Assembly: GCA_947475895.1 (NCBI GenBank) | Contig: CANJMF010000005.1 | Location: 1-64,000 of the forward strand | Direction: 5' to 3' | From: Fidelibacterota bacterium | Lineage (GTDB): Bacteria > Pseudomonadota > Alphaproteobacteria > Rhodospirillales > Rhodospirillaceae | DNA length: 64,000 bases | In this document: positions 17,388-64,000 of the stretch, piece by piece | Layout: each line of letters starts with the position of its first letter | Position numbering within the stretch: position 1 is the stretch's first letter | The notes under the pieces: model-generated | The model's input: the letters and a program-made list of their open reading frames with translations, nothing else | Told to the model about the DNA's origin: nothing | Database searches by the model: none | Program-made: the position numbers and the translations under genes

Positions 17388-17454
17388 GATCTTCCTCCGG
17401 TCTGTTTTCTAACGTACCGCGGCGAAGCCCGCGCGGGTTCCTATCGTTCGCAGA

Positions 17455-18735
17455 TTAGATCAGCGGCTTTTGCGACATTCTGACCTGCAGTTTGCCGTAC
17501 GGATTATCGGTGTACTGCATCACTACGGCCTTCGGAATGTTCTCGACTCCATCGACCACGGTGTTGATTGGGCGCAGCCTTTTTTCAATGACGAGCCGCG
17601 ACAAATAGTTCTCGGCCTCTATGCGATCCTGATAGAGCTCGTTTACCTGCCACGATTCAACGTGGATGTGCTTGGCGTCGCAAATTTTTGCGACGTCTTC
17701 GCTCATCCCAAACATATTGCGGCGACTGCCCGGGCGTTGGCCTGCTGCCGCGGGCGTCCCAGAGGGCCGTTCGCCGTTGGTCGGCGCATAGAGGGCCGCC
17801 GAAGTACCGTAATTGAAAAAACGGCTGTCCTCGTTCATCACTTTAGCGACCGACAAAGAGAGGTCGCCCGCAACGCCATCGGAGAAGAAATCGACGCCTT
17901 TCGGGAATGTCTTGCGGAGTTGGTCGTCGAGATCCTTTGCACGATAATCCAAGGCCTCGATGCCGAATTGGTCCTTGACCCACTGGGTACGTTCAGGCCC
18001 GCCGCCAAAACCTACGACGTGGCAGCCTTTAGCGAGGAGAAGCTGTGCAACCATCGCGCCCACCGAGCCCGTCGTTGCCGCCACTGCGCATCGATCGCCG
18101 GGGCGCATGGGGCCGCATTCGCGCAGTCCGAAGTAAGCAGTCGTGCCTGAGCTGTGGAAGATGTCCATAAGAACGTCGGCGGCGTGCATTTTCAGCATCA
18201 CCGGCCGCCAGACAAAGCCCCACGGATTATTGGTGCCGTTCAGCTGCTTCACCATTTCGTTCGGTAGTACGTAGCCGGGCTGCGGGCCGTATTCGGCACT
18301 GATGATCTGGTGATCTTGCCATCCGGCAAGGCAGGCAATGACATCGCCCTCCTTGAAGGTGCGGTCTTTGGATTGGAGCACGCGGCCCAAGGTGTAATTG
18401 GTGTTGTCGGTTTCACCGGGCTTGGTGATGCCGCCCGGGCTCATGCGTTCGCGCGTCGCCGAGTGGATGTTGAATAAGATATTCTCGATTAAGCACTCGC
18501 CGTTTTTGATCTGCGGAATGGGCGGCTCGGTGAGCTTAAAGTTTGCCTCGGAGATCTTGCGGTCCACCACGGGCGTGGAGACCACCCACCTCTTGTAAGT
18601 TTTTGGGGTCTGCGCTGCCCAGGCGACGCCGCCGAAACGACGGAACGACGCTAGACCGCTCACCACGCTCGCCGTGCCGGCGACACGCAACAGTTTGCGG
18701 CGCGATACGCCCTTATTATCCTTCGCTGTAGGCAT
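17455..18735 (-). CDS. Tat-exported MDR-family NADPH-dependent oxidoreductase
   Basis: 426 residues. The N-terminus carries a twin-arginine signal (VSRRKLLRVAGTASVVSGLA). The rest is the medium-chain reductase fold of the leukotriene-B4-dehydrogenase / alkenal reductase group. Visible parts are YTLGRVLQSKDRTFKEGDVI, the dinucleotide-binding ATTGSVGAMVAQLLLAKGCH, GVDFFSDGVAG and a C-terminal AVVMQYTDNPYGKLQVRM. No zinc-ligand pattern is seen, as expected for this group. These enzymes reduce activated double bonds with NADPH. A Tat signal means it would be exported folded with its cofactor, which is rare for an NADPH enzyme. It lies upstream of the exported VOC gene on the same strand. Confidence 0.83.
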   Translation of the reverse strand: MPTAKDNKGVSRRKLLRVAGTASVVSGLASFRRFGGVAWAAQTPKTYKRWVVSTPVVDRKISEANFKLTEPPIPQIKNGECLIENILFNIHSATRERMSPGGITKPGETDNTNYTLGRVLQSKDRTFKEGDVIACLAGWQDHQIISAEYGPQPGYVLPNEMVKQLNGTNNPWGFVWRPVMLKMHAADVLMDIFHSSGTTAYFGLRECGPMRPGDRCAVAATTGSVGAMVAQLLLAKGCHVVGFGGGPERTQWVKDQFGIEALDYRAKDLDDQLRKTFPKGVDFFSDGVAGDLSLSVAKVMNEDSRFFNYGTSAALYAPTNGERPSGTPAAAGQRPGSRRNMFGMSEDVAKICDAKHIHVESWQVNELYQDRIEAENYLSRLVIEKRLRPINTVVDGVENIPKAVVMQYTDNPYGKLQVRMSQKPLI

Positions 18736-28443: not shown

Positions 28444-28711
28444 CTCAATCGCCCAAAATAATTGCGCGCGGAGAGCCGTCCTGACAGAGAGTTCTTCTGA
28501 AAATCGGCCGACCCTTGGACCAAAGAAGACGTCAATTTTACGCTATCTTACCTAAAGTCTCACGTCCGGCTATAAAGACGCTCGAGTGAACGCCGACACT
28601 AAGCTCCTTAAGTCTGCGCGGAATTAAACATTTTCCAATTCAATGCGCGCCCGAGGGCAAGCGAGCCATCGCCGCCGAAGAATTTGAGTATATGTCGCCT
28701 ATGTGAGGTCG
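28444..28711. other. Leader region of the COG4315-like gene
   Basis: No ORF of interest is present. It lies upstream of the first COG4315-like gene and likely contains its promoter. I do not see a clear match to the palindrome found upstream of the paralogue at 56.5 kb. Confidence 0.35.
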
Positions 28712-30073
28712 ATGATGTGGTCGCGATCAATTGTCAGATTACTTGCCGTTCTCGTCGCGTCTGCCGCCATTGATGCGCCAGCTTTCGCCGCGCGTGAATC
28801 GGCAGGTAAGGAAGACTTCTTGAAGGGCGACCTTCCGCCCGGCGTCCAGGTCGTTGTTCACGAACTGGAAGGACCTGTTTTCGCCACGAGCGATGGCAAG
28901 ACGCTCTATCGTTGGCCAAAAAAAGACCTGCGCAACGGCAACGCCGGCGAAATACCGCTCAAGCCCACATGCAGCGACACCGTCTATCGCGAGAATGCGG
29001 GCCTGATGAGTCCGTATCCGGCCGGCCTCACATTGCCGGAAGCAGATCGACGTTTAAGCTGTGCGCAGATGTATCCGCCTTTCATTGCGCCGGAAGGTGC
29101 AAAAGCAGTAGGCAAGTGGACCGTCGTCGATCGCCCTGATGGCCGCAAGCAGTGGGCTTACGACGATTGGTCCTTGTATATGTCGATATTAGACAAACGC
29201 GCGGGCGATGTTCTTGGCGGAACCACGCTCGACAATGGCTCCGAAACCGGCGCGACGCGCATTCCGGTTGGGCCCAGTCCAACTATACCGCCTCAGTTCC
29301 ACGTTCAGTCGACGATGAGGGGGCGGCTCATAACGACCCACGATGGTTGGTCTGTATACGTCAACAAATGGGATGGGACCAAAGCAACGAACTGCAAGGG
29401 TGCGTGCCTGGATGGATGGGAACCGATCCTGGCGCCCGCCTATGCCAGCCCTGTCGGGGAGTGGACGCTTTTTGAAAGGGAACCGGGTGTGAAGCAGTGG
29501 GCGTTCCGTGGCGCGCCGCTTTATCGTTATGTGACGGACCGCAAGATACACTCGATGGATGGCAGCGATATTCCCGGATGGCGGAATGTCTACACGCAAC
29601 TCGGACCGCAGCCCCCGGCGGAATTCGTCGTGAAGGACACCATGATTGGCATTGTGCTTGGCGACCGCAACGGTAAGACGATTTATCGCTATCGCTGCAG
29701 TGATGATGCTGCCGACCAGCAACTGTGTGACTACCCTGACGCACCACAGGCCTACCGAATGGCTGTCTGTGGCGGTAGCGATGTGGACCGTTGCTTAAAA
29801 ACTTTTCCCTATGTGCCTGCGTCCCAAGGTGCGAAGTCCGGCAATCGGACATGGACGACGATGTATATCAACCCACGCACAGGGAAGGTCGCTGCAGACG
29901 GGGATAGTAATGCGCAGCTCGTTTGGGCGTACCGCGAACGTCCGGTCTATACATTTGCGGGTGACAAAAAAAGCGCCGACATTCTGGCGCACGCCTGGGG
30001 CGAATTTAACGGTCTGCGTAACGGGTATATGGCAATAACCTATCGAGATATTTTTTCACGCCGGGATGAATAG
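28712..30073 (+). CDS. Exported eight-cysteine COG4315-like repeat protein (copy A)
   Basis: 453 residues with a signal peptide (VRLLAVLVASAAIDAPAFA). At least three units resemble COG4315, the family with a conserved Yx(FWY)xxD motif. Landmarks are GKTLYRWPKKDLRNG, GWSVYVNKWDG followed by NCKGACLDGWEPILAP, VKQWAFRGAPLYRYVTD and GKTIYRYRCSDD. All eight Cys of the mature chain are conserved in the paralogues at 56.5 and 58.3 kb (TCSD, SCAQ, NCKG, ACLD, RCSD, LCDY, VCGG, RCLK), which suggests four disulfides or a metal or cofactor site. The GAGG site precedes ATG 28712; a GTG at 28703 is possible. The partner gene follows after 41 bases. The function is unknown; it acts outside the cytoplasm. 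Confidence 0.8.
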   Translation: MMWSRSIVRLLAVLVASAAIDAPAFAARESAGKEDFLKGDLPPGVQVVVHELEGPVFATSDGKTLYRWPKKDLRNGNAGEIPLKPTCSDTVYRENAGLMSPYPAGLTLPEADRRLSCAQMYPPFIAPEGAKAVGKWTVVDRPDGRKQWAYDDWSLYMSILDKRAGDVLGGTTLDNGSETGATRIPVGPSPTIPPQFHVQSTMRGRLITTHDGWSVYVNKWDGTKATNCKGACLDGWEPILAPAYASPVGEWTLFEREPGVKQWAFRGAPLYRYVTDRKIHSMDGSDIPGWRNVYTQLGPQPPAEFVVKDTMIGIVLGDRNGKTIYRYRCSDDAADQQLCDYPDAPQAYRMAVCGGSDVDRCLKTFPYVPASQGAKSGNRTWTTMYINPRTGKVAADGDSNAQLVWAYRERPVYTFAGDKKSADILAHAWGEFNGLRNGYMAITYRDIFSRRDE

Positions 30074-30114
30074 TCGCTGCGTACAACTTCTCTTTTCTTA
30101 TGAGGAACTAGAAA

Positions 30115-31248
30115 ATGAAATCGGTAAAACGTTCATGTCTAGCGTCCCTGCAGCCGTATGCCGTGGCAGGCGTGCTGCTCGCTCTTGCGGCGAGCGGAAC
30201 TGCTGCGCCGGAAGGCGATAAAACGGCTCCTGTGGGTCGTCAGATCGGTTACGCGATCTACGACTTCGAGTGGGCGCTTTATCAGACACCCGACGGTAAA
30301 AAGGAATGCCCTGAGGGCATCAACAAGTTGGGACCCCGCGAACAATTCAAGGCGCTTTTCCCCGAGGGCGAAGGGAAAAAGAGCATTATGGAGACAGAGC
30401 TAACTTATGAAGGCGAAGTCTGGCATCCGTCCGGCAAGATCAAGGAATTCCCTTTCCACGAAGCTGTGAGCAAAGTCGCGTTCGGTTTGAATCTGGATGG
30501 AAAGGTGGGCGCGACAGATTTCACGTCGCCCGATGGTGTCGCCGGCGTCGACAATCAGATGTATCGCGCCTTGGGCTGCATCGAAAATTATCGCGACAAT
30601 TCCTCAGTTCTGAATTTCGACAAATCGTTTTTCAGGAAGAACCAAATCAGCCGAATGATTATCCAGCTGACGGACGTCGATAGTCTTGTCAACGACGATG
30701 ATGTCACCATCACGACTTACAGAGGTGAAGATCGCCTCATGAATGATGCCACGGGTAACACATACGTACCCGGTGGCACGCAGCGCCTGGATACCAGGTG
30801 GGGCAAGGAGTTTATCAGCCAGGCAAAAGGCAAGATCGTCAATGGCAAGCTGATGACGGACTCCGTCGACTTCTATCTCCCGCTCGAAAGTGCGCGCGAT
30901 GAAGCATCAACCTGGTTGATCCGCGGAGCGCACTTCTCTCTGAGCCTCACCCCTGAGCGTGCGGAGGGAATGGTCGCGGGGTATGCGGACATCGATCGTT
31001 TCTATTTCGGCCGTAATCGCTCATGGTCAACCCACCATCTCAGCTACGGCCAAGAGGCCTCAATCTCGCTGTACAAAACACTTAAACGCTTGGCGGATGG
31101 ATATCGCGATCCGGCCACAGGCGAAAACACCGCGATCTCGTCGGCGATGAAGTTGAAGATGGTGCAGGTTCACATCCTGCCGGAGCAGCCTGCGCGGGTA
31201 AGCAGTCTCTCTAAGGATGGCGCGCCGGCCGGATTCAAGGTGAACTAG
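30115..31248 (+). CDS. Exported partner protein of unknown family (copy A)
   Basis: 377 residues with a signal peptide (YAVAGVLLALAASGTAA). I do not recognise the family. It shares with the protein at 59728-60876 the blocks ECPEGIN (ECPNGIN there), FPFHEA, FTSPDGxxGVDNQ, GCI-YRD, LTDVDSLVNDDDVT and DPATGxNTAIS. The two lie in the same position, directly after a COG4315-like gene. Two Cys are conserved in the mature forms. The DGxxGVDNQ and LTDVDSL layout suggests a beta-rich binding domain; this is inferred. It is probably periplasmic or surface-located and works with the upstream protein. TGAGGAAC stands before the ATG. Confidence 0.75.
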   Translation: MKSVKRSCLASLQPYAVAGVLLALAASGTAAPEGDKTAPVGRQIGYAIYDFEWALYQTPDGKKECPEGINKLGPREQFKALFPEGEGKKSIMETELTYEGEVWHPSGKIKEFPFHEAVSKVAFGLNLDGKVGATDFTSPDGVAGVDNQMYRALGCIENYRDNSSVLNFDKSFFRKNQISRMIIQLTDVDSLVNDDDVTITTYRGEDRLMNDATGNTYVPGGTQRLDTRWGKEFISQAKGKIVNGKLMTDSVDFYLPLESARDEASTWLIRGAHFSLSLTPERAEGMVAGYADIDRFYFGRNRSWSTHHLSYGQEASISLYKTLKRLADGYRDPATGENTAISSAMKLKMVQVHILPEQPARVSSLSKDGAPAGFKVN

Positions 31249-49060: not shown

Positions 49061-49918
49061 ATGCGTGGATTGATCGCAATTGCTTTGGTGTTGCTGCTCG
49101 CACCGGCGGCCGGATGGGCGAAAGACAGCAAGCCCGCCGTGGCGCGCACGCCCAACGAGCCCATCGTCGAATTTGAAATGATGACCTGGCCGGAGGTGAA
49201 GGCGGCGCTTGCGCAGGGCAAGACCACCGCACTTTTTTATACCGGTGGCACCGAGCAGCGCGGGCCGCAAAACGTCAATGGCGGCCATACCCTCATGGGA
49301 AAGGCGATCGTCAAAAGCGTCGCGCAAAAGCTCGGGAGTGCGATTGCGATGCCGGTGCTTCCCTACACGCCGAACAACGCCAGCGCCGGGCTGACCGGGA
49401 CGATTGGGTTAACGCCCGATATTTTGGCGGCGATTCTTGAGAGAGTCAGCGAGCAGGCGATCGTCACCGGCTTCGGAAATATTATCTTGATGGGAGATCA
49501 CGGCGGCGGCCAGCCGAGCGTGTATCAGGATGTCGCCAAGAAGTTGAACGAGAAATACGCAGCGCAAGGTATCCACGTTTTCTACTGCGACGACGTATAC
49601 CAAAAGGCTCAAAAAGATTTTGATGAGTGGCTTACGTCAGAAGGGTACCCGCCGAGCTTGCACGGCGGTTTACCGGATACAGCCGAAATGCTGTACCTCG
49701 GCGGCGATGAATGGGTGCGGAAAGATCTTGTTCCAACAGCGTTAGGAGATACGCCGCCACCACCCGGCGCCAGCGCCTCATTGCGAATCAACAATGGAAT
49801 TGTTGGCGATGCGCGCCGGGCAAATGCAGAGCTTGGCAAAAAGCTTTTCGATCTCAGGGTTGATTACGCGGTAAAGCAGATCCGGGGGTTCGTGAACACG
49901 ACACAGGGCGCTCACTGA
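49061..49918 (+). CDS. Exported creatininase-fold protein with altered metal site
   Basis: 285 residues with a signal peptide (LIAIALVLLLAPAAGWA) and a GAGGGGAGG site before the ATG. The creatininase fold shows TTALFYTGGTEQRGPQNVNG then GGHTLMGKAI, ILMGDHGGGQPSVYQDVAKK and HGGLPDTAEMLYLGGDEWVR. In classic creatininases the first motif is ExHG and a later Asp ligates metal. Here the sequence is EQRG and a His replaces the Asp region (GGH), while the GDHGGG and DTAEM motifs remain. It may bind a different metal set. The family hydrolyses cyclic or linear amides; the substrate here is unknown. Confidence 0.85.
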   Translation: MRGLIAIALVLLLAPAAGWAKDSKPAVARTPNEPIVEFEMMTWPEVKAALAQGKTTALFYTGGTEQRGPQNVNGGHTLMGKAIVKSVAQKLGSAIAMPVLPYTPNNASAGLTGTIGLTPDILAAILERVSEQAIVTGFGNIILMGDHGGGQPSVYQDVAKKLNEKYAAQGIHVFYCDDVYQKAQKDFDEWLTSEGYPPSLHGGLPDTAEMLYLGGDEWVRKDLVPTALGDTPPPPGASASLRINNGIVGDARRANAELGKKLFDLRVDYAVKQIRGFVNTTQGAH

Positions 49919-54500: not shown

Positions 54501-55277
54501 ATGCGGCTTTTCGATATGACAAATAAGGTCGCCATCATAACGGGCTCGTCGCGCGGCATAGGGCGTGCGATCGCCGAAGCTTTCGCCGAGGCCGGCGCGC
54601 GCGTTGTCATCTCCAGCCGGAAGCAAGCCGCGTGCGAGGCCGTCGCCGCATCGATCAATCAGCGCCATGGCGACGAGCGTGCCATTGCGCTGGCGGCGAG
54701 CCTTTCCGACAAAGCCGCGCTCGAACGCCTTGTAAGTGAAACACGGGCGAAGTGGGGCCGCATCGACGTGCTCGTGTGCAATGCCGCGTCCAATCCGTAT
54801 TACGGTCCCCTTAGCGGCATCAACGACGAACAGTTCCGAAAAGTTTTCGACAACAATGTGCTGGCGAATCACTGGCTGATAACGATGGTGTCGCCGGAGA
54901 TGATTGAGCGCCGTGACGGAGCCATCATTATTGTCTCGTCCATTGGCGGATTGATCGGTTCCGGCACGATCGGTGCTTACAACATTTCCAAGGCGGCCGA
55001 CCTGCAATTGGTCCGGAACCTGGCGGTTGAGTTGGGTCCGCACAACGTGCGCATCAATGCCATCGCTCCGGGCGTCGTGCGGACCGATTTTGCAAAAGCG
55101 CTCTGGGAAGACCCCATCGCTGAAGCGGCGCTGAAGAAGGCCACGCCACTGGGTCGGATCGGAGAGGTTGAGGACATTGCCGGCGCTGCCGTCTTTCTCG
55201 CGACGCCGGCCGGTCGCTATGTGACCGGTCAAGCCATCGTCGTCGATGGCGGAGCTACGATCTTCGGCGTTTTATAG
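54501..55277 (+). CDS. SDR family oxidoreductase
   Basis: 258 residues, the standard classical SDR length. The cofactor loop is VAIITGSSRGIGRAIAEAFA, followed by NAASNPYYGPL, the catalytic Ser in IIIVSSIGGLIGSGTIGAYN, the YNISK motif (Tyr and Lys) and NVRINAIAPGVVRTDFAKAL. The C-terminal YVTGQAIVVDGG is typical. The Arg after the cofactor loop Ser favours NADP, but this is weak. It follows the APH gene by 35 bases in the same direction and probably acts in the same CoA-ester catabolic path. Confidence 0.92.
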   Translation: MRLFDMTNKVAIITGSSRGIGRAIAEAFAEAGARVVISSRKQAACEAVAASINQRHGDERAIALAASLSDKAALERLVSETRAKWGRIDVLVCNAASNPYYGPLSGINDEQFRKVFDNNVLANHWLITMVSPEMIERRDGAIIIVSSIGGLIGSGTIGAYNISKAADLQLVRNLAVELGPHNVRINAIAPGVVRTDFAKALWEDPIAEAALKKATPLGRIGEVEDIAGAAVFLATPAGRYVTGQAIVVDGGATIFGVL

Positions 55278-55288
55278 TTGTACGACTT

Positions 55289-55930
55289 TTAGGGATCGCT
55301 CGCCTTGAAGGGCTCTTCTCTGCCCGGCGGCACGCGCTCTTCCGCAGCGGCAATTAACATCGCTACCGTTACATATGTGCCCGTTACGGCCGTAAGATCG
55401 ACCACGCCTTGTTCGCCCAAAGTGGCTTTGGCGCGCGCATATGTCGCGTCGGAAACTTTGTATTTCATCAACAGCTCTGTAACGAAGTTGTAGACCACCT
55501 CTTCGTCGGGCTGCATTGCTGTCGGGCGCTTATTGGCGCGGAGTTCGTCGATGGTGTGTTGCGCCAAGCCCGCCTTGGCTGCGAGTGGGCCGTGCGAATA
55601 CCACTCCACCTGCGAACGCCATTGGCGCCCCACGATTAGAATCGCGAATTCATTGAGTCGCTTGGGTACCGATGTCTTCCACCGCAAATAGTCGAGAAGA
55701 TCGAACATGCGCTTGCCCATATCCGGGCTTCGCAAGAGGGGATTGTATGGCCCCCCGAGGCCGACGCCAGAAACCTTGAGAATTTCGTCCGCGAGCGCGT
55801 TCTGATCGGGCGTCATCTGTTCGCGGGTCAGCGGCGAGAGGCGGGGCGTGTCGTTCGCACGGCTAGAAATATTCGCGCTCATCAGAATACCCGCAAGGCC
55901 GACGGTTATCACAGACCGCAATCGTTTCAT
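55289..55930 (-). CDS. Exported carboxymuconolactone decarboxylase family protein
   Basis: 213 residues with a signal peptide (VITVGLAGILMSANISSRA). The CMD fold is seen in YNPLLRSPDMGKRMFDLLDY, LNEFAILIVGRQWRSQVEWY then SHGPLAAKAGL, and LTAVTGTYVTVAMLIAAAEE. There is no CxxC pair, so it is not an AhpD-type peroxidase. The usual SQxEW-H block is kept. The substrate is unknown. Members with export signals are unusual. It converges with the SDR gene. Confidence 0.85.
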   Translation of the reverse strand: MKRLRSVITVGLAGILMSANISSRANDTPRLSPLTREQMTPDQNALADEILKVSGVGLGGPYNPLLRSPDMGKRMFDLLDYLRWKTSVPKRLNEFAILIVGRQWRSQVEWYSHGPLAAKAGLAQHTIDELRANKRPTAMQPDEEVVYNFVTELLMKYKVSDATYARAKATLGEQGVVDLTAVTGTYVTVAMLIAAAEERVPPGREEPFKASDP

Positions 55931-56008
55931 GGCTCGCTCCTATCCGGTGGCTGGCATCGCTAATTAACTTACCGCGCCTAGGCGATGATGGGCCATTCAA
56001 AACGCAAT

Positions 56009-56034
56009 AACGGCCAACTGGCGGGCTGGCCGTT
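56009..56034. repeat. Inverted repeat AACGGCCA / TGGCCGTT
   Basis: Perfect 8-bp arms with a 10-base loop. It lies about 80 bp upstream of the carboxymuconolactone decarboxylase gene (minus strand) and has no good T-run. It could be an operator or an orphan terminator. Confidence 0.45.
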
Positions 56035-56342
56035 CACACGACTTAAAGTGCGACAAGTACCAGGGTTACCGTATGTGGAACTGACGATGGTCGCGTAGGC
56101 GCACTACGCCCTCCTACGCCTTTCGGAAGCCGTCGTCTTGAGGTGCAAAAACGCAGGAAACCCGGTTTTTGTTGAGCTCCTGGCGTATTGAGGCGCACCG
56201 TCGCGGGTGCAGAGTAAGCTATCGTGGCCGTGCAACCGCAATTGATTCCTGCGGGCCGCTCGTTGTTTTTATGAGCTGCACTCCAAATCCTCTAAACGAG
56301 CACCCGTCGTGATTCGAAATAGTGGCGCCGCGATGCGCGCTG

Positions 56343-56357
56343 GAAGGAATTTCCTTC
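56343..56357. promoter_or_regulatory. Palindrome GAAGGAA-T-TTCCTTC upstream of copy B1
   Basis: Perfect 7-bp arms around one base, about 140 bp before the B1 start. The right half with the following TCTGTA and a TGTTCAG further on recurs at 58115-58150, upstream of copy B2. This is a plausible shared regulator site or promoter element. Confidence 0.45.
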
Positions 56358-56496
56358 TGTAAGGATGACTGTTCAGCTAAAATTTCGGGGTTGTTATAGC
56401 TCTAGCCGCGATCGTTATCGCCGCCAAGCGGCGAGATTTCAGTGAACGTAGACTCCGCGTCGTTTTTCTTAATCTAGAAATTCGGTGGAACAACAC

Positions 56497-57867
56497 ATGC
56501 GTCTCTTGCGAAAAGTATTGAGCATGGCGGTCATGATATTCGCTGTGATGATCAGCCTCCGCGCGCACGCAGCCAATTGGACGGCGAAGGAAGACTACAT
56601 TCGCGCGCCGATGCCCCCTGGTTTTCAGGTCATTGTTACGGAGCTAGAGGGGCCGGTGTTCGCTAACGCGCAAGGGCGGACTTTTTATAAGTGGCCCAAG
56701 ATGCAACTGCGAAACGGCGACGCAGGCGAGGTCGAAGGCAAACCCACATGCAGCGATCAGCCCTATCGCGAGAACAGCGGTTTCTTAAGTCCCTATCCGA
56801 AAGGGCTCGAACTGCCGGATGCAGATAAGCGCCCGGCGTGCACGGACGTTTGGCCTCCCGTTCTTGCGCCCGCCGATGCCAAGCCTGTCGGCGAGTGGAC
56901 GGTGGTTGAGCGTCTCGATGGCCGCAAGCAATGGGCCTACAAGGGCTGGTCGCTCTACACGTCCGTGGTGGATCAGCGACCGGGCGATGTCCTCGGCGGA
57001 ACCGCCATTCGCAATCTTGGCGGAACCGGCGCTGCGCGGCATCCGGTTGGCCCCGAAGCAAACGTGCCCGGCCAATTCGACGTTCAAACGACCATGTTTG
57101 GGCGGCTCGTTGTTTTGCACGAAGGCTGGTCCGTCTACACTTACGATGGCGACGGTCGCAATAAATCGAATTGCAAGGACGCTTGCCTCGACGGATGGTC
57201 GCCCGTGTTGGCGGCCGTTTCCGCCACGCCGTTTGGGGAGTGGTCGATTGTCGAGCGCGCGCCGGGCATGAAGCAGTGGGCGTTTCGCAATCGCCCCGTT
57301 TACCGCCATCTCAATGACTCGAAGCTTGGTGCGCTTGACGGCGGCGATACCCCGCGCTGGCACAACGTCTATACGCAAATGTCACCCGAGCCTCCGCAAG
57401 GCTTTGCCATGAAGCGGACGATCGTCGGGCTGGTGCTTGGTGATGCCAACGGCAAGAGCGTTTACAGCTACACCTGCGTCGACGATGCCATTGATGCGTT
57501 GGGCTGTGATTATCCAGAAGCTCCGCAAGCGTATCGCTTTGCCGTGTGCGGTGGCGGCAATCCGGAGCGATGCCTCAAGGTATTTCCGTTTGTTCTCGCG
57601 CCAGCCGGCGCGAAGAGCGGCAATCGGCTTTGGGGCACAATGTATATCGAGCCGAAAACAGGAAAGCGCGCGACGGTCGATGTTCCGGGCGCCCTCAACG
57701 TTTGGACTCTCCGCGGCCGTCCCGTTTATACGTTCGCGGGATATCAAGGCTATGGCGACCACAGAACGACCGACGTCAATGCCCACGGGTGGGGCGAAGT
57801 GAACGGCGGGCGCAACGGTTTTGCCGCGCTTGTTTATCGAGACATCCACGAGTCCCGCGATCGCTGA
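56497..57867 (+). CDS. Exported eight-cysteine COG4315-like repeat protein (copy B1)
   Basis: 456 residues; signal peptide to about residue 25 (ISLRAHA-ANW). It has the same repeat layout as copies A and B2: GRTFYKWPKMQLRNGDAGEV, then RKQWAYKGWSLYTSVVDQRP, GWSVYTYDGDGRNKSNCKDA then CLDGWSPVLA, MKQWAFRNRPVYRHLNDSKL and SVYSYTCVDDAIDALGCDYP. YTYDGD is a perfect Yx(FWY)xxD motif. Eight mature Cys match those of the paralogues. GGTGGAAC precedes the ATG; a GTG at 56485 is the alternative. It is highly similar to B2 over its whole length, so they are tandem duplicates. Cofactor binding or electron transfer outside the cytoplasm is a guess; the function is unknown. Confidence 0.82.
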   Translation: MRLLRKVLSMAVMIFAVMISLRAHAANWTAKEDYIRAPMPPGFQVIVTELEGPVFANAQGRTFYKWPKMQLRNGDAGEVEGKPTCSDQPYRENSGFLSPYPKGLELPDADKRPACTDVWPPVLAPADAKPVGEWTVVERLDGRKQWAYKGWSLYTSVVDQRPGDVLGGTAIRNLGGTGAARHPVGPEANVPGQFDVQTTMFGRLVVLHEGWSVYTYDGDGRNKSNCKDACLDGWSPVLAAVSATPFGEWSIVERAPGMKQWAFRNRPVYRHLNDSKLGALDGGDTPRWHNVYTQMSPEPPQGFAMKRTIVGLVLGDANGKSVYSYTCVDDAIDALGCDYPEAPQAYRFAVCGGGNPERCLKVFPFVLAPAGAKSGNRLWGTMYIEPKTGKRATVDVPGALNVWTLRGRPVYTFAGYQGYGDHRTTDVNAHGWGEVNGGRNGFAALVYRDIHESRDR

Positions 57868-58309
57868 ATTCATGGGCGCTTGAGGCACGCTGATGGCGCG
57901 GCGTGACGACGCGCATTAATTGCTGCAGTGCAGCACGCATTAAAGAATTGATGCCAAGCGTTTTCTAAAAGGCGATCTAAGCGAAATATTCAACGAATCC
58001 GAGCGGCATGGACTTTCGGGAGCTACTTTCTCTTTGAGAAACGCTGCAAATCTTTGTGAACGCGTGTGCACGTTCCTCAGTGAGTAGTGCGTGCATCAGG
58101 CTGCAACACGCATTGAATTTCCTTCTGTATCGACACATGTTCAGTTATAATTCATGCAGACACTCAGTGCGCTGTGTACCGCGCCTAGTGGCCTTGAGCC
58201 GGTCTTGCGTCGGGTTTGTTGCGGCTCTCTCAATGATCATTACCGCCGTATGTACGGCGAGATTTCAGAACGCAGGCTCGTACCCACTTTTTTAGACGCG
58301 GAAACATAT
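57868..58309. other. Spacer between tandem paralogues, duplicated leader
   Basis: No gene is called. It contains the perfect inverted repeat TGCTGCA-G-TGCAGCA (57921-57935), flanked on both sides by CGCATTAA. A third related copy (CACGCATTGAA) lies near 58109. From about 58115 the sequence resembles the B1 leader (AATTTCCTTCTGTA, TGTTCAG, CGGCGAGATTTCAG), so the leader was duplicated with the gene. Confidence 0.5.
57921..57935. repeat. Perfect inverted repeat TGCTGCA-G-TGCAGCA
   Basis: 7-bp arms with a one-base centre, about 50 bases after the B1 stop. It is flanked by direct repeats CGCATTAA. It might be a regulator site or the footprint of a small mobile sequence. Confidence 0.45.
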
Positions 58310-59692
58310 ATGCATCTGCTCCGAAATGTTTTGAGTGCAGCAATTGTCGCATCCGCGATGGCAAGCATGAATGCTCATGCGGCCAATCAGGCGACGAAAG
58401 AAGATTATGTGCGCGCGCCGATGCCGCCAGGGTTTCAGGTCGTTGCGACGGAACTTGAAGGGCCGGTCTTTGCTGATGCGCAAGGGCGGACCCTTTATAT
58501 GTGGCCCAAGCGGCAGCTACGAAATGGCGACGCGGGCGAAGTCGAAGGCAAGCCTACGTGCGGCGATGAACCGTATCGCGAGAACAGCGGATTTTTAAGT
58601 CCTTATCCGAAAGGCCTCGAAATGCCGGACGCCGATAAACGTCCGGGGTGCACCGCTGTTTGGCCTCCCGTGCTTGCACTTGCTGGTGCGAAGCCAATCG
58701 GTGAGTGGACGGTGGTTGATCGGCTCGATGGACGCAAGCAGTGGGCTTACAAAGGTTGGTCACTGTATACGTCGACCGTGGATAAGCGGCCGGGAGAAAC
58801 GTTCGGCGGCTCCGGGATGTTCTATCACGGCGAACCCGGCGCAAACCGTCATCCGGTTGGCCCCGAGGCAAATGTTCCGGGCCAATTTGACGTTCAAACG
58901 ACTTTGCCCGGGCGCCTTGTCGTTTTGCATGATGGCTGGTCCGTCTACACCTACGATGGCGACGGCCGTAACAAGTCGAATTGCAAAGATGCGTGCTTAG
59001 ACGGATGGTCGCCGGTGTTGGCGGCGGTGTCCGCCACGCCGTTCGGAGAGTGGTCGATCGTTGAGCGCGCGCCGGGCGTGAAACAGTGGGCATTCCGCAC
59101 TCGCCCTGTTTACCGACACCTTACTGATTCGAAGCTTGGATCGCTCGACGGCAGCGACGTTCCGCGTTGGCATAACGTCTATACGCAAATGACGCCTGAA
59201 CCGCCGCAAGGCTTCAAGTTGAAGGCCACAACCGTCGGGTTGACGATCGGCGATGCCAACGGCAAATCGGTCTATCGTTATACCTGCACCGACGATGCCA
59301 TCGATCAGTTGGAGTGCGACTATCCCGAGGCCCCGCAAGTGTACCGATTTGCCGTGTGCGGCGGCGGCGATCCCGACCGGTGTCAGAAAGTATTTCCCAT
59401 GATCATCGCACCAACCGGCGCCAAAAGCGGCAACATGGTGTGGGGCACGATGTATATCGAGCCGAAAAGTGGAAAGCGCGCATCAGCTGAAACGCCGGGC
59501 GCCCTCAACGTTTGGACCTTCCGCGGACGGCCCGTTTATACGTTCGCGGGATACAAAGGGTATGGCGATAATAGAACAACCGACGTCAATGCCCACGGAT
59601 GGGGCGAAGTGAACGGTGGCCGTAACGGCTTTGCTGCGCTGATTTATCGCGACATTCACGAGTATCGCGACGGTGTTCGAGCGGACAGATAA
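58310..59692 (+). CDS. Exported eight-cysteine COG4315-like repeat protein (copy B2)
   Basis: 460 residues, signal peptide MHLLRNVLSAAIVASAMASM then NAHA. It is a close copy of B1: GRTLYMWPKRQLRNGDAGEV, RKQWAYKGWSLYTSTVDKRP, GWSVYTYDGDGRNKSNCKDA, VKQWAFRTRPVYRHLTDSKL and SVYRYTCTDDAIDQLECDYP. All eight Cys are kept. The ATG at 58310 is chosen because it starts the signal peptide; the long in-frame extension from 58154 covers the duplicated leader and is rejected. The partner gene follows after 35 bases, the same arrangement as copy A at 28.7 kb. Confidence 0.82.
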   Translation: MHLLRNVLSAAIVASAMASMNAHAANQATKEDYVRAPMPPGFQVVATELEGPVFADAQGRTLYMWPKRQLRNGDAGEVEGKPTCGDEPYRENSGFLSPYPKGLEMPDADKRPGCTAVWPPVLALAGAKPIGEWTVVDRLDGRKQWAYKGWSLYTSTVDKRPGETFGGSGMFYHGEPGANRHPVGPEANVPGQFDVQTTLPGRLVVLHDGWSVYTYDGDGRNKSNCKDACLDGWSPVLAAVSATPFGEWSIVERAPGVKQWAFRTRPVYRHLTDSKLGSLDGSDVPRWHNVYTQMTPEPPQGFKLKATTVGLTIGDANGKSVYRYTCTDDAIDQLECDYPEAPQVYRFAVCGGGDPDRCQKVFPMIIAPTGAKSGNMVWGTMYIEPKSGKRASAETPGALNVWTFRGRPVYTFAGYKGYGDNRTTDVNAHGWGEVNGGRNGFAALIYRDIHEYRDGVRADR

Positions 59693-59727
59693 CGCGGCGC
59701 GGTTTCGCGCATTTCGGGAGAGACGCT

Positions 59728-60876
59728 ATGAAAAAAGAATGGTCCATATCGCACGCGTTGCTGCGCAAGGCAGCGATCGCGGGATTCACTGTCGCATCAT
59801 TGAGTGGTAGCGGCGCTGCGATCAGTGCCGATGACACCGCGCCCGCTGGCCGCTCCATCGCGTACTTGTTCACAAGTATCGCTTGGCCCGTGTATCAGTC
59901 GCGGGACACAGCCGGCAAAGAAACCAAGGACGAGTGTCCGAATGGGATCAATGACGGTGCCCGCGAGCAGTTCGCGGCTTCGTTTCCGCAGACCAACGGC
60001 CAAAAGTGGAAAATCGAAGATACCGCCATTGCACGCGAGGCCGAGATTTGGTTCCCGACGGATGAGCCGGACAAATTTCCTTTCCACGAAGCATCTGGCA
60101 AGTTTTCCTATGGTCTGGATCTCGACGGCAAAAATAAACCCACCGATTTCACGTCGCCTGACGGCAGAACCGGCGTCGACAATCAGCTCTTTCGCGCCGT
60201 CGGCTGCATTCTCAGCTACCGCGATGGTTCGTCGCAAAATCTTTTTGAGAAGAACTACTTCCAGAGCATGCTGTTCAATCGCATTCTCTTCGAATTGACG
60301 GACGTGGATAGCCTCGTGAACGACGATGACGTCACGCTCACGACCTATCGCGGCCTCGACCCGTTGGTGTGGGATGCGAAGGGTACGTTCCAAGCGGATG
60401 CCACGCAGCGCATCGATAAGAAATGGAGCCAGGACTTCATCAACACATCGAAGGCCAAAATCGTGAACGGCGTTTTGATCACGACGAAGCCTTCGGATTT
60501 TTACTGGCCCACCGAATTCGTGCATCAAGAAGCGCCAACCGACTGGCTGCGCGACGCGCACTTTGAACTGAAGCTCACGCCCGACACGGCTGAAGGTTTG
60601 ATCGGCGGATACGTCGATATTGAAACGTACTATCGCAGTCAAAATCGGCGGTACGGTACGCACCAGATCAGCTACGGCAAGACGGCGTCTGCGTCCTTAT
60701 ACAAAGCGATCCGTCGCTTAGCCGATGCTTATCCCGACCCGGCGACGGGCAAGAACACGGCTATTTCAACGGCGTTGGACGTGAAGGCCGTTCAAGTTCG
60801 CGTTATCCATCCCGAAGAGAAAGTCGCGGAAACGGGAACTGACACGCGCCGCGCCCAAACAGCTGAGGCGCGTTAG
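59728..60876 (+). CDS. Exported partner protein of unknown family (copy B)
   Basis: 382 residues with a signal peptide (AAIAGFTVASLSGSGAAIS). It is homologous along its length to the protein at 30115-31248: ECPNGIN, KFPFHEASGKFSYGLDLDGK, FTSPDGRTGVDNQLFRAVGC, ELTDVDSLVNDDDVTLTTYR, DAHFELKLTPDTAEGLIGGY and DPATGKNTAIS. Both lie directly after a COG4315-like gene. I cannot assign a family or reaction. The N-terminal DDTAPAGRSIAY region and two conserved Cys are shared. CGGGAGAG precedes the ATG. The haem-motif protein gene follows, linking this pair to the DUF1592/DUF1552 genes. Confidence 0.77.
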   Translation: MKKEWSISHALLRKAAIAGFTVASLSGSGAAISADDTAPAGRSIAYLFTSIAWPVYQSRDTAGKETKDECPNGINDGAREQFAASFPQTNGQKWKIEDTAIAREAEIWFPTDEPDKFPFHEASGKFSYGLDLDGKNKPTDFTSPDGRTGVDNQLFRAVGCILSYRDGSSQNLFEKNYFQSMLFNRILFELTDVDSLVNDDDVTLTTYRGLDPLVWDAKGTFQADATQRIDKKWSQDFINTSKAKIVNGVLITTKPSDFYWPTEFVHQEAPTDWLRDAHFELKLTPDTAEGLIGGYVDIETYYRSQNRRYGTHQISYGKTASASLYKAIRRLADAYPDPATGKNTAISTALDVKAVQVRVIHPEEKVAETGTDTRRAQTAEAR

Positions 60877-60938
60877 AAGCAGGATTGTTTTATCGGTTGA
60901 GAGACTTGCTCGCCGACAAGGTAGAGGTCACGTTGCGT

Positions 60939-62675
60939 ATGTTTAGAGAGCTATTGTTTACGCGCTTCATGAAGCGCCCAGCGGTCGTGTTAGCGGCCGC
61001 GACGATGCTGGCCGGCGGTGCAGTGGCGACGTTTGACCCCAGCTTGGCGGCGGAAAAGGCGAGTGCGGCAAAGGGGTCAAATTCCGCCGATGTAGGGACA
61101 CCGAAGCGTCTGCGGTTGCTCACAACGCAGCAGTACATCAACACGATTCAATATTTCTTCGGCCCCGACATTAAGATCGACGTGAAGTTTGCACCGCTCA
61201 CGCGAACGGATGGCGTGCTCATGGCGGGAACATCGCTTGCCGGCGTCAGTGATGCGCAAATCGAGACGTATCAAAAAGTCGCCAATATCGTTTCCACCCA
61301 GGTTCTCGACTCCCGGCACAGAAAGACGCTTGTTCCGTGCGTGCCGAAATCGGAGCAAGCGGCCGATAACGCGTGCGCCGCCAAGTTTCTGAGTGGCCTC
61401 ATCAGCTACCTCTATTCTGTACCGCCGCCGAAAGATCACTTCTCAATTCTTGTGGATGAAGCCGGAGCGGCCGCTAATCGTCTCAATGATTTCTATGCGG
61501 GCCTGCAAGTGACCCTTGAAGGCGTGCTTTTGAGCCCGAACGTCCTCTTCGTCGCCGAAAAAGAAGAGCCTGATCCGAAGCGTCCGGGGCGTTCGCGCCT
61601 GGACGCATTTTCGCAAGCGTCGCGGTTGAGCCTGTTTTTGTGGAACGCCGCGCCGGATGCTGAATTGCGTGCTGCTGCCAATCGCGGCGATTTGTTCAAC
61701 GAAAAAAGCCGTGCCCGGGTGGTCGATGCGATGCTCGCGAGCCCGCGTTTGGAAACAGGCGTGCGCGCGTTCTTCGACGACATGTTCGGCTTTGATGATG
61801 TCGAAACGCTCAGCAAAGACGCCGCGACCTACCCGTTCTTTTTGGGCGATGCCGGCGCCGACGCGCGCGAGCAAACGCTGCGTACCGTGGTCGATCAACT
61901 GCTGATCAAGAATAAGGATTACCGGGATCTCTACACCTCGCGCGAGACATTCATGTCGCCGTCGTTGGGACTGATTTACGGCGTGCGGACGGGACCAGGT
62001 TGGCGTGCCTATGAATTTCCACCGGAAGCACATCGCGATGGAATTCTCACGCAGGTGAGTTTCCTCGCGTTGCACTCTCATCCAACACGAAGCTCCGCAA
62101 CGTTGCGCGGCAAAGCATTGCGCGAACTCATTCTCTGCCAGAAGGTGCCGCCGCCGCCGGCCAACGTCGATTTCTCGGCGCTCAACAATCCGGATGCGAC
62201 CCTACGAACGGCCCGCGCGCGGCTCAGCGCCCATGCCCAAAACCCCGTGTGTGCCGGGTGCCACAAGATCACCGACCCTATGGGTCTCGCGCTCGAGAAC
62301 TTTGACGGCGCCGGCCGCTATCGCACGGCGGAAAAAGACACACCGATCGATGCCAGCGGTAGCCTCGACGGCAAGCCGTTCACGGACGTTGTCGGTCTTG
62401 GCCAAGCTGTCCATGACAGCCCGGCGCTGCCTTCGTGTCTCGTACGTCGTGCGTTTAGCTATGCCACGGCCGGAACGGTGCCAGTCACGGCTGAGCCCAC
62501 ACTGGCTCAGTTGAACAAAAGCTTTGTCGGCGAGGGCTATCGTCTCCGGGCGTTATTGAAGGCAATCACGCTCAGCGAAGGCTTCTCGGACGTGACCCAA
62601 CCAGCATCTAAGCCGGCAGCGCCGGAAAAAACCGCCAGCGTTTCGCTGCCGGGAAAAATTGCATCGAAGGAGTAG
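60939..62675 (+). CDS. DUF1587/1595/1592/1588/1585 protein with a CxxCH haem motif
   Basis: 578 residues from ATG 60939; a TTG at 60885 and an ATG at 60969 are in frame. The order of domains is DUF1587 (RLRLLTTQQYINTIQYFFG), DUF1595 (FLSGLISYLYSVPPPKDHFS), DUF1592 (ASRLSLFLWNAAPDAELRAA), DUF1588 (GILTQVSFLALHSHPTRSSA; LRELILCQKVPPPPANVD; CAGCHKITDPMGLALENFD) and DUF1585 (LLKAITLSEGFSD). CAGCH is a c-type haem site. These multi-domain proteins are best known from planctomycetes and myxobacteria, usually beside a DUF1552 gene as here. The function is not established; an exported electron-transfer or hydrolytic role is proposed in general terms. A hydrophobic N-terminus supports export. Confidence 0.88.
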   Translation: MFRELLFTRFMKRPAVVLAAATMLAGGAVATFDPSLAAEKASAAKGSNSADVGTPKRLRLLTTQQYINTIQYFFGPDIKIDVKFAPLTRTDGVLMAGTSLAGVSDAQIETYQKVANIVSTQVLDSRHRKTLVPCVPKSEQAADNACAAKFLSGLISYLYSVPPPKDHFSILVDEAGAAANRLNDFYAGLQVTLEGVLLSPNVLFVAEKEEPDPKRPGRSRLDAFSQASRLSLFLWNAAPDAELRAAANRGDLFNEKSRARVVDAMLASPRLETGVRAFFDDMFGFDDVETLSKDAATYPFFLGDAGADAREQTLRTVVDQLLIKNKDYRDLYTSRETFMSPSLGLIYGVRTGPGWRAYEFPPEAHRDGILTQVSFLALHSHPTRSSATLRGKALRELILCQKVPPPPANVDFSALNNPDATLRTARARLSAHAQNPVCAGCHKITDPMGLALENFDGAGRYRTAEKDTPIDASGSLDGKPFTDVVGLGQAVHDSPALPSCLVRRAFSYATAGTVPVTAEPTLAQLNKSFVGEGYRLRALLKAITLSEGFSDVTQPASKPAAPEKTASVSLPGKIASKE

Positions 62676-62682
62676 AGGAATC

Positions 62683-64000
62683 ATGAATGGTTTATCTCGC
62701 CGCCGCGTTCTCCGCGGCGTCCTCAATGGCGGCGCCGTCACGGTCGGATTGCCGCTCCTCAATTATTATCTCAACGGCAACGGCACGGCGTTTGCCGACG
62801 GAACACCGTTGCCCGTGCGCTTTGGGACCTGGAGCTGGGGGCTTGGAATGAGCCCGGCGGCTTTTGTGCCGAAGAAAACCGGTAAGGATTTCGAATTTCC
62901 AGAGGAAATCGAAGCGCTTGCACCCCTGCGCGACAAGATCAACCTTCTTACGAATATCACCGCGTTTCGCGACAACTCGCAGCTGATGTGCCACTTCACC
63001 GGCTGGGCGATTTCACGCACAGGCAATGCACCGAACAGCCGCAATCTCAGCAGCGAAACTTACGATATCAAGATTGCCAACCAGATCAGCCGGTCGCGCC
63101 GTTTTAAAACGCTGACGGCCAATGCCGCAGCCGATGCGCGCGTCTCGTTCTCGTACGAGGACCCAAATACGCCGAACCCGGCCGAATATTCGCCGGTTCT
63201 GTTCTATTCGCGTTTGTTCGGACCCGAGTTTCCGAATCCGAATGCCAAAGAATTCAAACCCAGCCCACGCGCGATGTCGCGCAAGAGCGTCCTCTCGGCG
63301 GTCATGCAGGAGATGGATGCGGTCAATAAGCGCGTCGGCGCCGAAGATCGGGCGCGCCTCGACCAATATTTCACGGGGCTGCGTCACCTTGAACACCAGT
63401 TCGATCAGCAGCTGACAAAACCGGAGCCCATTGCCGCCTGTAATCCGCCGGCGGCTCCCAAAGACTCTGACATGAAGCTGGGCAATGAATCGCCGCTTGT
63501 CATTCAGCGGCACAAGATGATGACGGATCTGCTTGCCATGGCCGTCGCTTGCGATCAAACGCGCGTCATCAATATGGCGTACTGCGCCATGCTCTCGAAT
63601 ACGATCAAACCCGGCTATGAAAAGCCGCATCACACGACCACGCACGAAGAGCCGATCGACGAGAAGCTTGGCTACCAGCCGAACTGCTCGTGGTTCACGC
63701 GCCGCTGCATGGAGGGTTTTGCCTCTTACGTGCAAGCGTTCGCGAATATCAAGGAAGGCGACGGTACGCTGCTCGACAACATGCTCATCGTGGCCGATAC
63801 GGACCACGGTGTGGCCCGCCTACATTCTTTGGATGGCATGCCCGTCTTTACCGCCGGCCGCGCGGGCGGCAAGGTCAAAACGGGTTTGCATATCGATATG
63901 AAGGGCACGACGATCGCGCGCGTGGGATATACGGCCTTGCGTACGATGGGCGTCGATGTTCAAAAGTTCGGTGATCGCAGCAATACGACCTCCGACCTTA
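62683..64000 (+). CDS. DUF1552 family protein (3' end outside window)
   Basis: At least 439 residues, open to the window end. It starts MNGLSRRRVLRGVLNGGAVT, a twin-arginine export signal, with GTAGAGGAA before the ATG. The DUF1552 pattern follows: RFGTWSWGLGMSPAAFVPKK, LAPLRDKINLLTNITAF, RHLEHQFDQQL, LAMAVACDQTRVINMAYCAM and LLDNMLIVADTDHGVARLHS. The fold resembles the sulfatase/alkaline-phosphatase superfamily-like DUF1501 group; this comparison is loose. DUF1552 and DUF1592-type genes are regular neighbours in other bacteria. The start is seven bases after the upstream stop, so they are co-transcribed. Confidence 0.88.
   Translation, partial: MNGLSRRRVLRGVLNGGAVTVGLPLLNYYLNGNGTAFADGTPLPVRFGTWSWGLGMSPAAFVPKKTGKDFEFPEEIEALAPLRDKINLLTNITAFRDNSQLMCHFTGWAISRTGNAPNSRNLSSETYDIKIANQISRSRRFKTLTANAAADARVSFSYEDPNTPNPAEYSPVLFYSRLFGPEFPNPNAKEFKPSPRAMSRKSVLSAVMQEMDAVNKRVGAEDRARLDQYFTGLRHLEHQFDQQLTKPEPIAACNPPAAPKDSDMKLGNESPLVIQRHKMMTDLLAMAVACDQTRVINMAYCAMLSNTIKPGYEKPHHTTTHEEPIDEKLGYQPNCSWFTRRCMEGFASYVQAFANIKEGDGTLLDNMLIVADTDHGVARLHSLDGMPVFTAGRAGGKVKTGLHIDMKGTTIARVGYTALRTMGVDVQKFGDRSNTTSDL

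Follow-up and report, generated by a model that had tools for sequence, protein, structure and literature searches.

A recurrent four-gene module, probably of the cell envelope, around a distinct DUF1552 subfamily in an alphaproteobacterial genome

Some environmental genomes encode numerous DUF1552 and DUF1592 proteins, families without known function; with which partners do they act, and to what end? This question is raised by the end of a stretch of 64,000 nucleotides (contig 5, positions 1-64000; hereafter "the window") of the alphaproteobacterial assembly GCA_947475895.1 (3.30 Mb, 36 contigs), where five consecutive genes encode two similar eight-cysteine proteins (P1a and P1b), a partner (P3), a haem-motif protein of the DUF1592 type (P4) and a DUF1552 protein (P5). 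The original prediction, made from the sequence of the window, regarded them as one exported system. We found that the four kinds of gene recur as a quartet in this and in other genomes and that they diverge together, and we are nearly certain that they form one functional unit. The genes at the end of the window are the following.

56497..57867, + strand: P1a, 456 residues, eight-Cys COG4315-like protein with PF03640 repeats and a signal-like N-terminus
58310..59692, + strand: P1b, 460 residues, tandem duplicate of P1a; alternative upstream start of the open reading frame at 58154
59728..60876, + strand: P3, the "partner", 382 residues, outside the Pfam and NCBIfam families
60885..62675, + strand: P4, 596 residues, DUF1587/1595/1592/1588/1585 type with a single haem motif, CAGCH
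62683..64000 (window end), + strand: P5, twin-arginine DUF1552 protein with an HxxTHEE signature

The prediction had described this arrangement correctly: all five genes lie on one strand, and after a gap of 442 bp between P1a and P1b, only 35, 8 and 7 bp separate P1b from P3, P3 from P4 and P4 from P5, respectively. The start codon of P4 is uncertain (TTG 60885, ATG 60939 or ATG 60969), and the frame of P5 extends 20 bases beyond the window, stopping at contig position 64020. P1a and P1b are 81% identical, contain eight Cys each and pass the PF03640 cut-off with 88.8 bits each, in 4 and 5 stretches, which agrees with their being called COG4315-like; their scores against NF040526 (SCO0930 family lipoprotein), 96.2 and 88.6 bits, do not reach the cut-off of 275. 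P3, which had been left unrecognised, is matched by no family of Pfam or NCBIfam up to E = 1. In P4, DUF1587, DUF1592 (90.9 bits), DUF1588 (103.8 bits) and DUF1585 exceed their Pfam cut-offs and DUF1595 stays below its own; with these scores and one CAGCH, at residue 456, P4 fits the PSCyt3 type by profile and motif. P5 starts with the twin-arginine sequence MNGLSRRRVLRG, as anticipated for a protein exported by twin-arginine translocation (Tat), and scores 160.2 bits against PF07586 (DUF1552; cut-off 30). Lying 7 bp apart on one strand, P4 and P5 constitute a DUF1592-DUF1552 pair. An Rfam scan of 55000-64000 gave no match, and promoter and terminator scans of the cluster added nothing.

The first step is to ask whether these genes are grouped by chance. 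The genome contains 14 DUF1552 genes, every one of which is clustered with P4 and P3; P4 adjoins P5 in 14/14 clusters, and a long P1 is present in 13 of them, the exception being the cluster of contig 17. Since the same set recurs 14 times, chance grouping is excluded. The prediction had proposed looking for further members beyond 64000, and contig 5 in fact continues with a second module at ~64.3-69.9 kb and a third at 73.3-78.8 kb. Moreover, one 893-residue open frame on contig 17 (L020:10578-13259) fuses P3 (residues 54-355; 287 + 23 bits) to P4 (residues 326-886; 881 bits), with the Pfam domains DUF1592, DUF1588, DUF1585 and DUF1595. It is the sole one of the scanned frames to match both profiles, and it comes from a draft assembly; the P4 profile, though not the P3 profile, had the fused protein among its rows.

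In other genomes, 222 relatives of P3 were found, at one genome per species, and the best 80 were analysed; a plus-strand P3 frame was present in 79 of these 80 loci. P1, P4 and P5 lie on the same strand within 8 kb of P3 in 24 of the 27 loci that have at least 6 kb on both sides. This is the opposite of the outcome named beforehand as fatal to the prediction, namely that the partner and COG4315-like genes would rarely be found near DUF1552 and DUF1592 genes elsewhere. When the 65 P3 genes flanked by 1.6 kb in each direction are considered, 49 have a same-strand P1 within 300 bp, three have P4, four have another P3 only and nine have none of these, some of the nine having P1 on the opposite strand. 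The commonest gene order is P4-P5-P1-P3; the orders P3-P4-P5-P1 and P1-P3-P4-P5 also occur in our genome. Of 385 genomes sampled from the class, six carry P3; DUF1552 was matched in eight, over the cut-off in six, and the six genomes with P3 are the same six in which DUF1552 exceeds its cut-off. Together with the full quartets and the P3-P4 fusion, this sustains the view that the COG4315-like proteins and the partner belong to the system.

The four protein families have also diverged in step. Pairwise distances were compared for 42 complete modules, in which genes were paired by gaps of at most 250 bp; fragments and overlong frames outside the length limits were excluded here, as in the signature and motif counts below. 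The distances of all four families correlate with r = 0.93-0.97 among the 10 complete modules of the genome and with r = 0.79-0.88 among the 32 modules of other genomes, values not reached by any of 2000 permutations. When P3 is mis-paired across modules in tandem arrays, r for P3 within the genome falls to 0.38-0.40. P4 and P5 are the better conserved members, with medians within the genome of 45% and 48%, versus 29% for P1 and 32% for P3.

Is the association then a property of DUF1552 and DUF1592 proteins in general? Ordinary DUF1552/DUF1592 pairs are also present in three genomes, and P1 and P3 are absent from the five ordinary loci that we examined (six pairs; L106, L107, L109, L110 and L111). 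The P4 of ordinary pairs measures 816-1046 residues, against 596 in the window. The signature of quartet-type P5 is THEE in 65/66 proteins and SHEE in one, whereas ordinary P5 has SHH in 4/5 and SHN in 1/5; HxxSHH, the motif that gives PF07586 its name, is thus replaced by HxxTHEE in the P5 of the window. Because THEE replaces HxxSHH, the quartet P5 represents a distinct DUF1552 subfamily. In a tree of 44 P5 sequences, the five ordinary ones are split from the 39 others with 100/100 support; the tree sampled every third locus of other genomes, and the branches at this split are long and drew a warning from the program. The original prediction is hereby refined: the association is specific to one DUF1552 subfamily and absent from the ordinary pairs examined, the module is multi-copy, and P1-P3 also occur alone. 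An ankyrin protein adjoins the ordinary pair in three of the five loci (L109, L110 and L111), while the tested neighbours in L106 and L107 are not ankyrin proteins. In L109-L111, which belong to two metagenome genomes titled Gammaproteobacteria, a DUF1592 protein of ~820-910 residues, an HxxSHH-type DUF1552 protein and an ankyrin-repeat protein are found together.

A clue to function comes from relatives in which other genes stand in the place of P1. P5 and P3 are separated in L108 by a cupredoxin of the plastocyanin type and a protein of 205 residues, and in L113 the genes after P5 encode cytochrome c' and a VOC protein. On the Sphingobium plasmids L125 and L126, P3-P4-P5 are followed by cytochrome c' and cytochrome b561 (P3 of L125 being split over two annotated frames), on Sphingobium L127 the same three genes are followed by a VOC protein, and L129 has P4-P5 and b561 with no adjacent P3. 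Novosphingobium L128 combines P3, P4 and P5 with a short frame that resembles P1 (60 bits) and overlaps P3, and L114 carries a complete quartet. In the P5 tree, rooted at its midpoint, the P1-bearing modules exclude L108, L113 and the four Sphingobium rows with moderate support (85/84). As carriers occupy the P1 place of these relatives, it is suggested that the position of P1 corresponds to that of an electron carrier, a reading that the VOC case fits less simply. The carriers also lend support to the prediction's "possibly redox-based".

The proteins themselves point in the same direction. Across 46 P4 rows, the CAGCH motif with its His is invariant, as are four additional Cys; one CxxCH is found in 58/58 P4 of 500-700 residues, and a lipobox pattern in 33/58; a twin-arginine pattern is seen in 62/66 P5. 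We consider that the quartet very probably sits in the cell envelope and that the P4-P5 core is likely to be redox, in which case P4 would bind haem and P5 a metal. The predicted structure of P4 is mostly helical, at a mean predicted local distance difference test (pLDDT) score of 85, and its best alignment (Z 5.2, phycobilisome linker domain) is background. P3 has two invariant cysteines, Cys70 and Cys160, across 79 rows; scanned singly, the 79 members gave stray weak matches only, with none to YceI or lipocalin Pfam families at E up to 1. Its model is strand-rich (mean pLDDT 87) and predicted to be barrel-like by comparison; its alignments with barrels of the avidin, OmpA and lipocalin/YceI types do not rise above background (best Z 7.9, avidin type and then OmpA type). 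In the comparison with YceI/lipocalin-type barrels, values for BcnB (Z 5.8, root-mean-square deviation 4.0, 115 aligned) and TT1927b (Z 5.0, deviation 5.4, 119 aligned) are within the usual background as well; because the scores are at this level, a YceI-like nature of P3 is a lead only. P1 had one match by sequence among solved structures (E up to 1), at chance level.

The neighbourhood of the clusters was inspected for hints of what the module might act upon. Nine of the genome's 29 TonB-receptor matches lie within 5 kb of a cluster (expected 1.3, p = 3e-6), as do 5 of the 7 near-full-length flavin mononucleotide (FMN) dehydrogenases, FMN_dh (expected 0.31, p = 3e-6); these p-values treat genes as independent and are therefore flattering. 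The seven FMN_dh are what remained of 13 matches when six partial or weak ones were dropped, and the main count covers P1-P3 groups without a core too; when only the 11 contiguous quartet stretches are taken, by a slightly different distance rule, 6/29 TonB receptors and 5/7 FMN_dh are within 5 kb. The annotated neighbours, a picked selection of module and orphan-pair flanks rather than a random sample, include further redox proteins in our own and other genomes (cytochrome c, flavin adenine dinucleotide proteins, a flavocytochrome c flavoprotein and a molybdenum hydroxylase), besides VOC proteins, NHL propellers, creatininase-like and amidase proteins, a sodium symporter and LysR regulators. 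Steroid or saponin catabolism was considered as a common substrate, since the Steroidobacter and Sphingobium relatives have catabolic genes nearby, and was dropped: neighbours elsewhere differ, and the main text of PMC10653915 does not contain the terms DUF, TonB or cytochrome.

Taken together, the recurrence of the quartet in its own and other genomes and its evolution as a unit make it probably an undescribed envelope redox machine for several compounds. P4, putatively a haem c protein and in many relatives equipped with a lipoprotein signal, would form a conserved periplasmic redox core with P5, which is Tat-exported, has invariant His and Asp and is probably a metalloprotein; P1 and P3 might be added to this core as a faster-evolving pair handling the substrate and/or passing electrons on. 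Compounds would enter via TonB receptors, and the core would act together with flavin enzymes encoded nearby to oxidise them or to attack them reductively with oxygen; a small carrier would move electrons between P4 and the respiratory chain; this carrier may be cytochrome c' with membrane cytochrome b561, or a cupredoxin, in relatives, with P1 in that position in our genome. Copies would have multiplied so that separate modules serve separate compounds. The computation itself establishes the unit, its co-divergence, one P3-P4 fusion, the signatures, the replacements at the P1 place and the neighbours, from which haem and metal content, the flow and direction of electrons, substrate handling and a catabolic role are deduced. 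That the module serves the oxidation of varied compounds is in our view as probable as its contrary, and we judge likewise of the whole, for which the best explanation is a multi-copy envelope module for electron transfer and oxidation, in which the P4-P5 core is conserved and the P1-P3 pairs evolve faster.

Several observations weigh against this explanation. P1 has no CxxCH and no evident cofactor, and its eight Cys may be disulfides only; the VOC protein at the P1 place of L127 is not an obvious electron carrier. Three of the 27 P3 loci are not quartets (two with no other quartet gene, one with P1 only), and P1-P3 pairs also stand without the P4-P5 core. As the neighbouring catabolic genes vary, no single pathway is indicated. 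Finally, none of the four proteins has a known activity, and a search of solved structures by sequence (E up to 1) gave nothing for P3, P4 and P5, and the models of P3 and P4 had no significant structural match (Foldseek, E up to 0.001, and second-look alignments).

Two other accounts deserve to be weighed, each of which we find rather unlikely. The module could be mainly hydrolytic, P5 being a divergent hydrolase of the alkaline phosphatase type that removes sulfate, phosphate or another ester from imported compounds, and P4 having a structural or sensing role with haem as an accessory. P5 belongs, as we assume, to the alkaline phosphatase superfamily clan, and several of its His and Asp residues are invariant across ordinary and quartet types alike. 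Sulfatase genes, in addition, are often near PSCyt genes in Verrucomicrobia (PMC5615132, in part). However, the selected annotated neighbours include oxidoreductases and electron carriers, not sulfatases, and the haem motif is kept in all 58 P4. Perhaps, instead, the module sends electrons outward from the quinone pool to oxygen-using enzymes at the surface instead of taking them from substrates, like the proposed bacterial redox partners of lytic polysaccharide monooxygenases (LPMOs) of the Cbp2D type. The X183 haem domain of Cbp2D reduces an LPMO in vitro, according to PMC8981238 and PMC12542752, and cytochrome b561 adjoins the core in Sphingobium L125, L126 and L129; yet no LPMO or carbohydrate-binding domain is among the annotated neighbours, and the modules adjoin small-molecule enzymes. 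A non-catabolic envelope role (adhesion, envelope repair or stress defence, the copy number giving surface variation) is improbable: P1 and P3 are indeed the most variable members, and a gene table on stress response lists a secreted Rhodopirellula DUF1552 protein (PMC2754498, in part), but TonB receptors and FMN dehydrogenases are enriched near the clusters and nearby AraC, IclR and LysR regulators are of kinds often tied to catabolic operons.

Returning to an oxidation module with a conserved core, a bolder extension may be put forward, tentatively and as something we would not expect to prove right in full. The module would be an oxidation-based proteobacterial counterpart of a polysaccharide utilisation system, with a shared haem/metallo core of P4-P5 (14 cores here and up to 29 DUF1552 genes elsewhere), interchangeable P1-P3 pairs that lend specificity, many dissolved compounds attacked in the periplasm, and P1 acting as an electron-transfer protein of a new kind at the position that cytochrome c' or a cupredoxin occupies in relatives.

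The P1-P3 pairs that lack a core are worth describing in this genome. The P3 profile has 23 matches, two of them within one gene, which leaves 22 genes; PF03640 is matched in 23 genes, of which 21 are long P1, each clustered with P3, and two are short (frames of 144 and 197 residues) and sit elsewhere, away from P3 clusters. Beyond the 13 P1 and 14 P3 of the modules, and besides P1a, seven P1 and eight P3 genes form seven groups without their own P4-P5, on contigs 5 (28703-31248), 7, 12, 16, 17 and 6 (two groups, one of which adjoins a module); the group on contig 17 has one P1 and two P3. The pair on contig 5 lies in the window, with no P4 or P5 adjoining.

28703..30073, + strand: P1 of the orphan pair
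30115..31248, + strand: P3 of the orphan pair, 454 bits against the P3 profile

Some of the orphan groups adjoin TonB receptors or FMN dehydrogenases. All clusters of P1, P3, P4 and P5 together occupy ~100 kb, or 3% of the genome.

As to distribution, an order sample of 199 genomes has P3 in four (our own, two from the same genus and a further member of the family), and no P3 was found in the 19 other family members within that list; copy numbers in the class and order samples are lower bounds, part of the candidates having been scored. With P3 in few of the sampled genomes, the module is therefore patchy, but multiplied where present. The class was taken as Alphaproteobacteria from the 16S of family member G599, whose best full-length matches, 88-90% identical, are on Thalassospira, Rhizobium and Azospirillum replicons; a search for 16S in our own assembly found none. 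Named cultured hosts of P3 are Hydrocarboniphaga effusa, three Solimonas species and Steroidobacter or Peristeroidobacter, and the remaining records are titled as metagenome-assembled or uncultured, with labels such as Marinimicrobia that are not trustworthy. Across 21 P3 genomes, DUF1552 copies range from 1 (including Hydrocarboniphaga and Solimonas variicoloris) to 29, counts in which ordinary and quartet-type genes are mixed. Relatives of P3 and P5 occur in 13 and 15 plasmid records, and the hosts are Sphingobium or Novosphingobium for 13/13 and 14/15 of them, the last P5 match being in Planctomyces; P1 matched 76 plasmid records, none covering 80% of it.

Some side observations may be recorded here. 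The C-terminal DUF1585 region of the fused protein (L020:10578-13259) also weakly matches DUF1800, below the cut-off; DUF1800 and DUF1501 genes form a pair as well, and the match hints at a distant link between DUF1592/DUF1552 pairs and DUF1800/DUF1501 pairs. In the window, a VOC-family protein with a signal-like N-terminus adjoins a protein with a twin-arginine start and zinc-type alcohol dehydrogenase domains (16590-18735), and VOC proteins adjoin modules at other loci too. A creatininase-family protein is encoded at 49061-49918; the same family directly follows P3 in L092, and members of its sequence cluster are also in L100 and L049. Proteins like the NHL propeller protein at 385-1596 are found repeatedly next to modules, both in our own and in other genomes. 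Metagenome genomes titled "Candidatus Marinimicrobia" (L022-L025, L027 and others) have modules close to ours, and their labels look wrong. L087:7232-11089 contains P3 and P1 in two mirrored copies and resembles an assembly palindrome.

With this analysis, one DUF1552 subtype gains a four-part form, an unnamed partner family, a sequence signature and a natural P3-P4 fusion, and its Sphingobium megaplasmid relatives show electron carriers beside the core. Cultured Solimonas variicoloris and Hydrocarboniphaga effusa have a single DUF1552 gene, so deletion and expression tests are feasible. No title among the papers listed in our literature searches concerns the quartet or P3, the papers having been judged mostly by listing and otherwise from their main text.

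How, finally, does the module compare with known systems? With planctomycete-type PSCyt3/PSD it shares the DUF1587/1595/1592/1588/1585 series of P4 and the DUF1552 domain of P5, whereas the ordinary pairs examined have a longer P4, an SHH or SHN P5 and no P1 or P3. PSCyt genes are numerous in lake Verrucomicrobia, where PSCyt3 genes usually adjoin one unknown family, unnamed in the main text of the study, which points to a carbohydrate role and states that nothing is known of function (PMC5615132); the secreted DUF1552 protein of Rhodopirellula carries the table comment "regulatory mechanism" (PMC2754498). From P1, with several PF03640 repeats and an NF040526 match of 96 bits, the COG4315/Lipoprotein_15 (PF03640) SCO0930 family differs, since P1 is below the 275-bit cut-off, has ~456 residues and eight conserved Cys, and always accompanies P3 in the genome. 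The Sphingobium megaplasmid operons L125 and L126 share the gene order P3, P4, P5, with a P5 of the THEE type, and are accompanied by a TonB receptor and an AraC regulator, but lack P1, and their genes are annotated as DUF, hypothetical or cytochrome. The closest experimental case, as far as its descriptions go, is Cbp2D of Cellvibrio japonicus and its relatives. Cbp2D has DUF1587, a CxxCH-bearing X132 domain and a YceI-like domain, and its mutants grow poorly on cellulose (PMC8981238, PMC12542752); like the Teredinibacter proteins TERTU_3803 and TERTU_2913, for which a figure legend prints DUF1687 where Cbp2D has DUF1587, it is secreted or proposed to be so (PMC8981238, PMC10916295, PMC12542752). 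By the published domain description it resembles P4 in DUF1587 and CxxCH, its redox role belonging to X183, and it differs in that these descriptions name no DUF1552, P1 or P3 partner.

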